Assembly (NCBI GenBank): GCA_028688815.1
Contig: JAQTXJ010000013.1
Location: 1-41,493, forward strand
Reading direction: 5' to 3'
Length of the DNA stretch: 41,493 nt
DNA from: a bacterium
GTDB lineage: Bacteria > Hydrothermota > UBA3073 > JACQXS01 > JAQTXJ01
Shown piece after piece: positions 35,568 through 39,739 of the stretch; positions within the stretch are counted from its first letter, which is position 1, and every line of letters begins with the position of its first letter. The notes beneath the pieces are model-generated. The model was given only the letters and a program-made list of their open reading frames with translations. It made no database searches and was not told the DNA's origin. The translations under genes were made by a program, and so were the position numbers.

Positions 35568-36371
35568 ATGACTCGGCTTTTATTATTGCCTATTGTTTTC
35601 TTACTCACTCTATTTGTTGATGGTTGTTCACCTAAAAAAAAATCCTCTATAACGATTGCCGGTTCCACTTCTGTACAGCCTTTCATCGAAAAACTTGCTG
35701 ACCAGTTTATGGCAAAATATCCTGGTATAAAAATCGATGTCCAGGGTGGTGGCTCTACTGCAGGAATACAAGCAACGTTTAACAACACATGTAATATAGG
35801 AACATCTTCAAGAAACCTCAAACAAAACGAACAAGAATTAAAAACTTTCCTTATGTGTTATGATGGAATCGTAATTATCCTACATAAAACAAATCCAATC
35901 AATGATTTAACCGAGGAACAAATAAGAGCTATCTTTGACGGCACAATTACTAATTGGAAAGAAGTCGGGGGCAAAGATTCTAAAATTATTCCGGTAACAA
36001 GAGAAGAAGGCTCAGGAACAAGAGGCTCTTTTGAAGACTTGATTATGGAGAAAAAAGTAATAAGTGATGCCTGTCTTGTTCAGGATTCAAATGGTTCGGT
36101 GCGAGAAATAATAGCAACTACCCCTCAAGGAATAGGTTATATATCTGCCGGGCTTGTTGATGAAAGAGTAAAAGCAATCAACATTAATGGAATTTCAGCG
36201 AATACCGAAAATTTTCTTTCTCATAAATATAAGTTTATGAGACCGTTTTTACTATTAACAAAAGATGCCCCGACAAGTAATGTAAAAAAATTTATTGATT
36301 ATACATTGTCTACGGAAGCACAGGATATATTAAAGAAATATGGTTTAATTTCAATAGGAATAAAAGAATGA
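35568..36371 (+). CDS. pstS: Phosphate ABC transporter substrate-binding lipoprotein
   Basis: 267 aa; lipobox FVDGCSPKKK, ITIAGSTSVQPFIEKLADQFMAKYPGIKIDVQGGGSTAGIQA, TREEGSGTRGSFEDLIM. Confidence 0.94.
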   Translation: MTRLLLLPIVFLLTLFVDGCSPKKKSSITIAGSTSVQPFIEKLADQFMAKYPGIKIDVQGGGSTAGIQATFNNTCNIGTSSRNLKQNEQELKTFLMCYDGIVIILHKTNPINDLTEEQIRAIFDGTITNWKEVGGKDSKIIPVTREEGSGTRGSFEDLIMEKKVISDACLVQDSNGSVREIIATTPQGIGYISAGLVDERVKAININGISANTENFLSHKYKFMRPFLLLTKDAPTSNVKKFIDYTLSTEAQDILKKYGLISIGIKE

Positions 36372-37201
36372 AAGATAAAATAGCAAAGTGGACGCTATTA
36401 GTTATTGCTTTTTCTGCTGTCCTTGCTCTTTTATTAATTACATTTTTTATATTTCAACAGGGCGTTCCTTTAATGTTCAAAGCAGGGTTAAAAAACTTTT
36501 TCTCTACTCAATGGTCTCCAACTCACGGAAAATTCGGAATATCTTCAATGATTGTCGGTTCACTAATGGTAACTTTCGGAGCGCTTTTGATCGGCGTCCC
36601 TTTAGGACTTTCCTGTGCAATTTTTTTAACGGAATTTTCTTCCAAAACAGTCCAGAAAAACTTAAAGCCTGTAATTGAATTACTTGCCGGAATTCCATCC
36701 GTCGTTTACGGCTTTATCGGCATTATTGTCTTAGTCCCATTTATAAGAGAACACATAGGAGGACCGGGATTTTCGGTCCTCGCGTCAAGCATTATTCTTG
36801 GTATAATGATTTTACCCACAATAGTAAGTATTTCTTATGACTCTTTACTCGTGGTTCCGGGAACTTACCGCGCAGGCTCATTGGCGCTCGGCGCAACAAA
36901 ATGGCAAACGGTTACTATGGTATTGATCCCTGCCGCCCGTTCAGGTATAATTACTTCAATAATCTTAGGAATGGGAAGAGCAATCGGGGAAACAATGGCA
37001 GTAATTATGATTGCCGGTAATGCCTTAAAAATTCCACATTCAATACTTGACCCGGTGCGCACGATTACTTCAACGATTGCGCTTGAATTAAGTTATTCCG
37101 TAGGTGACCATAGAATGGCTTTGTTTGCTTGCGGAACGATACTTTTTATTATTATCATTATCCTGAATATTATTGCAACTAAACTTACAAGGCGAACATA
37201 A
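36368..37201 (+). CDS. pstC: Phosphate ABC transporter permease PstC
   Basis: 277 aa; FGISSMIVGSLMVTFGALLIGVPLGLSCAIFLTEF, AGIPSVVYGFIG, GATKWQTVTMVLIPAARSGIITSIILGMGRAIGETMAV; 4-nt overlap with pstS. Confidence 0.93.
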   Translation: MKDKIAKWTLLVIAFSAVLALLLITFFIFQQGVPLMFKAGLKNFFSTQWSPTHGKFGISSMIVGSLMVTFGALLIGVPLGLSCAIFLTEFSSKTVQKNLKPVIELLAGIPSVVYGFIGIIVLVPFIREHIGGPGFSVLASSIILGIMILPTIVSISYDSLLVVPGTYRAGSLALGATKWQTVTMVLIPAARSGIITSIILGMGRAIGETMAVIMIAGNALKIPHSILDPVRTITSTIALELSYSVGDHRMALFACGTILFIIIIILNIIATKLTRRT

Positions 37202-37205
37202 AAAA

Positions 37206-37931
37206 ATGTATAATAATTCTATCATTATGAATCTATCACTTATCTGTGTTTTAATTACAGGAGGATGTTCCTGGTACACATCAGAAGAACTTAAAAATTT
37301 AGGTCCGGATGGAATCCATACAATAGGAATTGCCCAAAAACTCCTCAAAACATCAAATCCCAAAAATACAAATGATTTCTGCAAGTGTGATAGATTTTAC
37401 AATGTAATGCGCACACCTGTTTTGCCGAACCTTATAATCTTTGTTTTTGGTCCTTCTTCAGGCATCTGGGATCCTCCTTGCTGTTGTCATGTGGGAGTAA
37501 ATACAATAACAGAAGCGTCAGAATTATTAATTGATTCTCCTTTGTCTAAAGATTTATACAATAACCTAATAGATAGCTCCGATATTTCAAGAATAACTAC
37601 AGATACTCAAGTTTTAGAATACACAGCAAAATTCCTTATACACATATTTTCTTCTGAAGTGGTATGGGATAACTCCAAATATATAAAGATTAATCTTTAT
37701 ATATTTGGAGACTCATCTGCTTCAGAATCAGATTATATGCCAAAAGTAAAGAATACAAGTGATTATTATTGGGTAACTTTATATACTGATAATTTACTTT
37801 TTAGAGGTACAATTTCTAAATGGACATTTTACATAAAAAGAAACGGTATAATTGTAGATATAAAGAAAGAAGATATTAGCATCAATTGGACTAATGTGCA
37901 AAAAGAAATAGAAAACCAAAAAAAGAAATAA
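37206..37931 (+). CDS. Uncharacterised Cys-containing putative lipoprotein inserted in the pst locus
   Basis: MYNNSIIMNLSLICVLITGGCSW (lipobox ITGGC); CKC and PPCCCHVG motifs; likely start 37206 (ORF-track TTG start 37173 lies in pstC). Confidence 0.7.
   Translation: MYNNSIIMNLSLICVLITGGCSWYTSEELKNLGPDGIHTIGIAQKLLKTSNPKNTNDFCKCDRFYNVMRTPVLPNLIIFVFGPSSGIWDPPCCCHVGVNTITEASELLIDSPLSKDLYNNLIDSSDISRITTDTQVLEYTAKFLIHIFSSEVVWDNSKYIKINLYIFGDSSASESDYMPKVKNTSDYYWVTLYTDNLLFRGTISKWTFYIKRNGIIVDIKKEDISINWTNVQKEIENQKKK
37673..37710. repeat. Perfect 38-bp palindrome
   Basis: CTCCAAATATATAAAGATT|AATCTTTATATATTTGGAG, 19-bp arms, no spacer. Confidence 0.97.
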
Positions 37932-38053
37932 AATAATACTATTTATGAAAACTAAATCAAAAGAGCATTACAACCTAAAGGGCTTATAAAAGATATTATT
38001 AAAAACTTTAGTGTATTTTTGTGTTTTTGTGCATTAGTGGCAAAAAAGGAATA

Positions 38054-38893
38054 ATGTTTAAAATTAAACCTAAAACGACTCAAATCATTGCTTATTCGGT
38101 TTTGTTAGCGTTGACTTTTATTACCATTGCAGTCCTTGTTTTTATTATTTTATTCATCTTCAAAAATGGCATCAGGGAATTAAGCTGGAGTTTCTTAACG
38201 CAACCGACTAAAGAAATGGGAAAAGAGGGTGGAATACTACCTTCCATTGTTGGAACTTTACTCGTTACACTGTTTTCAATTATCATTGCAACACCTATAG
38301 GTGTTGGCAGCGCAATTTATTTGACTGAATACACTAAAGGGGGAGCAATCCGCAGGATAATAAGTTTCGGCGCTGATTGCCTTGCAGGTATGCCTTCAAT
38401 TATTTTCGGACTTTTTGGATTTATATTCTTTGTAATAATGTTGAAAATGGGATGGAGTATTTTATCAGGCGGGTTGACTCTCGCAATAATGATTTTGCCG
38501 ACTATTATCAGGACATCCGAAGAAGCAATCAAATCGGTTCCTAACGCCTACCGCGAAATAAGTTACTCGCTCGGGGGCGGGAAATTAGACACGATTATTA
38601 AAATAGTTCTTCCTACTGCATTACCGGGAATATTAACAGGCGTTATTTTAGGGATAGGAAGAGCAATTAGCGAAACGGCAGCAGTAATATTTACGGCAGG
38701 CTCATCGTTAAATATGCCAACGTCATTATTCTCTTCCACAAGAACACTCGCGGTTCATTTTTATATCCTTGCAAGAGAAGGGATATCAATGCCAAAAGCT
38801 TATGGAACAGCAACGGTTTTGATTATAATTATATTGCTTATTAATTTTATCGCTTATAGATTAATGCATAAATTTATTTCCAAATATTACTAA
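38054..38893 (+). CDS. pstA: Phosphate ABC transporter permease PstA; likely start 38054
   Basis: GGILPSIVGTLLVTLFSIIIATPIGVGSAIYLTEYT, AGMPSIIFGLFGF, GGGKLDTIIKIVLPTALPGILTGVILGIGRAISETAAVIFTAG. Confidence 0.93.
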   Translation: MFKIKPKTTQIIAYSVLLALTFITIAVLVFIILFIFKNGIRELSWSFLTQPTKEMGKEGGILPSIVGTLLVTLFSIIIATPIGVGSAIYLTEYTKGGAIRRIISFGADCLAGMPSIIFGLFGFIFFVIMLKMGWSILSGGLTLAIMILPTIIRTSEEAIKSVPNAYREISYSLGGGKLDTIIKIVLPTALPGILTGVILGIGRAISETAAVIFTAGSSLNMPTSLFSSTRTLAVHFYILAREGISMPKAYGTATVLIIIILLINFIAYRLMHKFISKYY

Positions 38894-38911
38894 TGATAAA
38901 AATTATAGCTA

Positions 38912-38983
38912 TGGAGTGCAACAACGGTGTTGTTGCAGAAAATAAAAAAGAAAATATCGCAAAATCGCCGATTTTGCACTCCA
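38912..38983. repeat. Nested palindromic element between pstA and pstB1
   Basis: Outer arms TGGAGTGCAA (38912-38921)/TTGCACTCCA (38974-38983); inner hairpins TGCAACAAC-ggt-GTTGTTGCA (38917-38937) and GCAAAATCG-c-CGATTTTGC (38959-38977). Confidence 0.85.
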
Positions 38984-38995
38984 AAATTTAATAAT

Positions 38996-39739
38996 ATGAT
39001 AAAAATCTCTATAAAAAACTTAAACGTATTTTACAAAAATATTCACGCGCTTAAAAACATAAACTTAGATGTAGAAACAAACGAAATACTTGGGATAATT
39101 GGGCCCTCAAATTCCGGCAAAAGTTCTTTACTACAGGTTATTAACCGACTTTCCGAAATGAATAACTCAAAAGTCACGGGAGAAATACTATTGGATACTG
39201 AAAGCATATTTTCTTTGCCTATAAACAGTTTACGAAAACGAGTCGGCTTAATATTCGCAACTCCAACTGTTTTACCTGGGTCTATATACAAAAACGTTAC
39301 TTATGGGCCTAAACTACATAAAAAATTCAAAAAAAGTGAACTTGATGAGTTAGTTTACTTTGCATTAAATACCGCCGACTTATGGAATGAAGTTAAAGAC
39401 AGACTTCAAGAATCCGCTTCCAAACTTTCCGGGGGACAGCAGCAAAGACTCTGCATTGCCCGTATTCTGGCGCTCAAACCCGAAGTAATTATGATGGATG
39501 AACCATCCTCAGGATTAGACCCGATTTCTACGGCAAAAATTGAAGGAACAATGGTATCATTAAAAGATAAATACACATTTATTCTTGTTACGAATAATAC
39601 AAAACAAGCCGCAAGAGTTAGTTCACGGGTAGCATTTTTCCTGTCAGGCGAAATGATTGAAATTGACAAAACAGAAAAAATGTTTACCAATCCTAAAGAT
39701 AAAAGAACTAACGATTATATAAGCGGCAGGTTCGGATAA
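38996..39739 (+). CDS. pstB: Phosphate ABC transporter ATPase PstB, copy 1 (degenerate Q-loop and switch His)
   Basis: Walker [11 protein letters not shown]-loop position LIFATP (Ala), [29 protein letters not shown] (Asn at H position). Start 38996 preferred because 38927 lies in the palindromic element. Confidence 0.9.

Follow-up and report, generated by a model that had tools for sequence, protein, structure and literature searches.

In Escherichia coli, a polymerase that has stalled at a quasipalindrome copies the nascent strand, whereby the repeat becomes more perfect (PMC7202029). Template-switch events have altered 39 protein-coding genes in yeast (PMC8604942), and template switching can make perfect hairpins in one event (PMC8794818). 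Template switching has also been proposed for the long coding palindromes of nematomorph mitochondria (PMC6649704). Two further types of sequence that can be compared with the palindrome described here are the Rickettsia palindromic elements and the GTAG-type REP palindromes (PMC3733652).

The locus is found in a window of 41,493 bp, i.e. the whole stretch of DNA that was analysed, from the draft genome (2.67 Mb, 157 contigs) of an uncultured bacterium, which its nearest named relatives place in the WOR-3/Stahlbacteria group. The genes are arranged in the order phosphate-binding protein, pstC, an orphan, pstA, two pstB-type ATPases and phoU. The features are as follows:

36368–37201, forward strand: pstC, phosphate ABC transporter permease (Pfam BPD_transp_1; 98.6% identity to the same-genus protein)

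37202–38053, no strand assigned: expanded pstC-pstA junction (852 bp), in which the orphan gene and what remains of a CTGTG/GTGGC-type dispersed repeat are located (comparison with WOR-3 loci)

37206–37931, forward strand: host open reading frame, an orphan, 241 amino acids from the ATG at 37206 (translation, coding signal and homologue searches)

37643–37740, forward strand: imperfect hairpin, or quasipalindrome, centred on the palindrome; three of its 40 base pairs are G-U (fold)

37673–37710, no strand assigned: perfect palindrome, 19 bp arms, no spacer, coding for (N)SKYIKINLYIFG (sequence and repeat search)

38054–38893, forward strand: pstA, phosphate ABC transporter permease (Pfam BPD_transp_1; 99% identity to the same-genus protein)

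The palindrome resembles the quasipalindrome mutations of the E. coli thyA and lacZ reporters (PMC7202029) and of yeast coding genes (PMC8604942) in that a coding inverted repeat has been made perfect, is surrounded by an imperfect repeat and keeps the frame. It differs in that the ancestral imperfect sequence is missing and the perfect tract is long (38 bp). With the nematomorph palindromes it shares perfection, translation of both arms and a phase 2 register (PMC6649704); however, those number in the dozens, reach 284 bp and lie in conserved genes, whereas here there is one case of 38 bp in a bacterial orphan gene.

An earlier note on this DNA reported a perfect palindrome, read in frame, and both points hold. 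The letters at 37673–37710 are CTCCAAATATATAAAGATTAATCTTTATATATTTGGAG, which are self-complementary throughout, and the arms stop at an A/A mismatch (37672/37711) with no further extension. The segment is read as N-SKYIKINLYIFG-D within the 241-residue frame. The centre of the palindrome falls between two codons, so that second codon positions pair with each other, the register termed phase 2 in the scheme of PMC6649704. Residues are paired across the palindrome as hydrophobic with polar (F-K, I-Y, L-K, I-N), which would fit an amphipathic strand, and the coded segment alternates as K/Y/I/K/I/N/L/Y/I/F, compatible with a beta strand. An AlphaFold2 model of the single orphan sequence has a strand at residues 159–169, i.e. 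most of the segment, at low confidence; the mean pLDDT of 38 is too poor for use, and the model is too weak to count as support.

A search for copies, as the earlier note had suggested, places the palindrome at one site only in the whole 2.67 Mb genome. In this genome, neither the palindrome nor a single arm recurs beyond what chance would give, and with up to three mismatches allowed the palindrome was not found in any of 146 further genomes from the phylum (WOR-3/Stahlbacteria). The flanks likewise have no second copy in the whole genome. A weak match at C5:41622, which falls within pheT, was rejected.

That arms of this length are very unlikely to arise by chance had also been proposed, and the codon-shuffle null is in agreement. 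When 1.31 Mb of reading frames from this genome were codon-shuffled 300 times, arms of at least 16 were seen 0.003 times per replicate and arms of at least 17 never. Extrapolation at about 0.28 per further base gives an expectation for arms of at least 19 of ~1e-5 to 1e-4 per genome, and a register-specific estimate is 1e-5 per genome. In reading frames of at least 150 amino acids, palindromes with arms of 6–11 agree with the null (for arm 6, 303 observed vs. 327), and only two coding palindromes exceed arm 11, one of arm 14 and the one of arm 19. The former is of the GTAGGGAAC...GTTCCCTAC (GTAG) type, which recurs in the genome. Thus, no other coding palindrome of the genome that lacks an explanation comes near the arm-19 one in length.

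Spacerless palindromes in general are overrepresented: in the 1.70 Mb collected of the genome for these statistics, nine with arms of at least 12 were observed and none simulated under an order-5 Markov model. Most of them are intergenic or recurrent REP-like sequences. Other long perfect palindromes of the genome are at L070:15362-15403, L008:1814-1851, L102:11954-11983, L145:19152-19179 and L140:4846-4873. They include one that resembles a bidirectional terminator (arm 21), another that is GC-rich and intergenic (arm 19), and members of the GTAGGGAAC...GTTCCCTAC family, which resembles GTAG-type REPs, although a Y1 transposase was undetected in the genome.

The perfect core is embedded in a larger structure. 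The hairpin of 98 nt has a predicted fold of -43.1 kcal/mol (z -9.9). When the core was kept and the flanking codons of the gene were shuffled, one in 5000 shuffled flanks folded as well with G-U pairs counted, and 20 of 3000 were as good without them. A gapped alignment of the two 30 nt flanks reaches no more than marginal significance (p about 0.017), and symmetry has no significance beyond these flanks. Perhaps the partly G-U pairing of the flanks reflects structure at the RNA level instead. Matches to Rfam scored far under the curated cut-offs.

No convincing homologue of the gene that carries the palindrome was found in Pfam, NCBIfam, PHROGs, PDB sequences, phages, plasmids, viral contigs or genome contigs; weak protein matches in two class-level relatives were rejected, as they are antisense to other genes. 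The product is tentatively a lipoprotein, with a hydrophobic N-terminus that ends in GGC and a lipobox that is not canonical. The gene is AT-rich (30% GC vs. 36% for the genome). Its coding signal runs through the palindrome in one frame, and codon statistics there are normal.

The gap between pstC and pstA is 852 bp here vs. 2–5 bp in 19 other WOR-3 loci. In a same-genus genome (JAQUPX010000002.1), whose flanking DNA is 91–93% identical, the gap is 245 bp, with CACAGAG-type repeat sequence inside, and the reading frame is missing. The orphan may have been gained in this lineage or lost in the sister; the sequence comparison favours gain, because all other WOR-3 loci have a short gap. The gene is probably young and dispensable. 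As it is an orphan confined to this lineage and is missing from the same-genus genome, constraint on it is probably weak.

We consider the palindrome to be real and statistically unusual; most likely it has no function and arose in an orphan gene through a known mutational process. The reading that we prefer, with a probability of roughly 0.55, is that a quasipalindrome was homogenized by replication template switching and the product was tolerated in a young gene. The starting point would have been an imperfect inverted repeat, about 98 nt long, in a stretch of the AT-rich orphan. While replicating it, the polymerase would have switched from its template to the neighbouring arm, on the nascent (or complementary) strand, copied that arm and then switched back; through this quasipalindrome correction, the central 2 x 19 bases would have become fully complementary. 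The corrected product would have been tolerated because it keeps the reading frame and a segment compatible with a beta strand.

Two properties of the locus are those of quasipalindrome correction: the inverted repeat is longer than expected by chance, and it lies within a longer imperfect inverted repeat, for which the flank alignment is weaker (p about 0.017). A perfect core centred in a significant imperfect inverted repeat is the expected footprint of this process. The collections searched yielded no homologue or strain that carries the sequence from before the switch, so the template-switch event is one that we infer. Inferred, too, are when it took place relative to the flanks and that no function was selected. 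If the template-switch reading is true, the palindrome represents one clear natural case, in an uncultured bacterial lineage, of a replication error that rewrote up to half a dozen adjacent codons of a young gene at once. It is a datum on how orphan genes change and not a new system, and the importance of the palindrome would rise only if strains showed co-variation of both arms.

The earlier note had also raised the possibility of an inserted palindromic element that keeps the frame. An element of roughly 98 nt, like those of Rickettsia, would have landed in frame, and its outer arms would have decayed since. The frame, the size and the hairpin shape fit: the Rickettsia elements, too, are palindromic, are about 100 nt with flanks and are found in frame in reading frames. 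In addition, the lineage takes up small palindromic repeats: between pstA and pstB it has acquired ~100 bp that include a hairpin repeat, and a GTAG-type palindrome is present in another reading frame of the genome. However, the palindrome here is single copy with a perfect core; neither it nor its flanks recur in the genome, the core has no copy in the 146 other genomes of the phylum, and thus the multiple copies of a Rickettsia element, or of another mobile palindromic repeat, are not seen. No target duplication is obvious, and a perfect centre with a decayed outside is unlike the outcome of uniform decay. GTAG-type REPs are similar in being short perfect palindromes, and the GTAGGGAAC...GTTCCCTAC ones do occur elsewhere in the genome, but the palindrome described here is unrelated to them in sequence and single copy, and its arms begin with CTCC and have no GTAG tag. 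The Y1 REP transposase (PF01797) had no matches in the genome, the control being positive in five genomes. Insertion is therefore doubtful, although it fits the frame.

It is unlikely that the palindrome is a selected structure that tunes how much pstC product is made relative to pstA product, either as a hairpin in the mRNA (e.g. a site of RNase III cleavage or a switch coupled to translation) or as a binding site in the DNA of the operon. The hairpin is very stable (z -9.9), G-U pairs count at the RNA level and the location is mid-operon. It is within a translated frame, however, where ribosomes would melt it, and neither the same-genus relative nor other WOR-3 bacteria have it in their version of the operon. 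Nor does it have the properties of an intrinsic terminator: the stem is AT-rich, lies inside a reading frame and is followed by ACTCATCTG with no T-run, and the genome's terminator-like hairpins differ from it in appearance. The protein-binding or cruciform site suggested in the earlier note gained nothing in its support, the site being single copy, intragenic and missing from relatives, with no second site for a binding protein in this genome or in the 146 others of the phylum. A hairpin telomere is not indicated either, as the telomere resolvase (PF16684) had no matches in the genome, with the control positive in one genome. That the 98 nt hairpin has been selected as a functional RNA inside the translated orphan gene, where it would serve to process or uncouple the transcript of pstC and pstA, and that the protein sequence has been adapted to the palindrome, appears quite improbable.

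Coincidence has to be weighed as well. The AT-rich codons AAA/TTT, TAT/ATA and ATT/AAT are mutual reverse complements and among the commonest in this genome, and they might have lined up by chance in a beta-strand segment, with a large scan picking out the rare case. Against this are the expectation of ~1e-5 to 1e-4 per genome and the complementarity of the flanks, which adds to the improbability. Such an origin is unlikely but not absurd, as the first stage presumably covered a large number of windows.

Of the replication or assembly artefact that had been proposed, the replication part survives as the template-switch explanation, which is the best that we have; an error of assembly or amplification (a fold-back or chimeric read) is conceivable in a draft, metagenome-type assembly of 157 contigs but highly improbable, because the frame and normal coding signal continue on either side, the palindrome is internal to a contig whose flanking genes are syntenic with those of the same-genus relative, and any short read spans 38 bp.

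Other repeat sequences were observed in the operon and elsewhere in the genome. The pstC-pstA junction has grown in this genus (37202–38053 here; L165/L026 of the same-genus genome), and a remnant of the CTGTG/GTGGC-type repeat, TTAGTGGCAAAAAA, is retained directly upstream of pstA in both genomes of the genus. The ~100 bp between pstA and pstB (38893–39005) are missing from the same-genus genome and are bordered by a 10 bp direct repeat, TGATAAAAAT, at 38893 and 38996. They contain the hairpin repeat TGGAGTGCAACAACG...TTGCACTCCA, to which about ten other sequences of the genome are partly related, and are probably a recently inserted small palindromic repeat. Lastly, the CACAGAG/ACACGGAGG-type dispersed repeat of the genome appears to lie in frame, as the peptide NEKTRRNADVDTEEHRNLKIN, in a linker region of the gene at about 41.6 kb (L246, G000:C5), which we take to be pheT, encoding phenylalanyl-tRNA synthetase beta.
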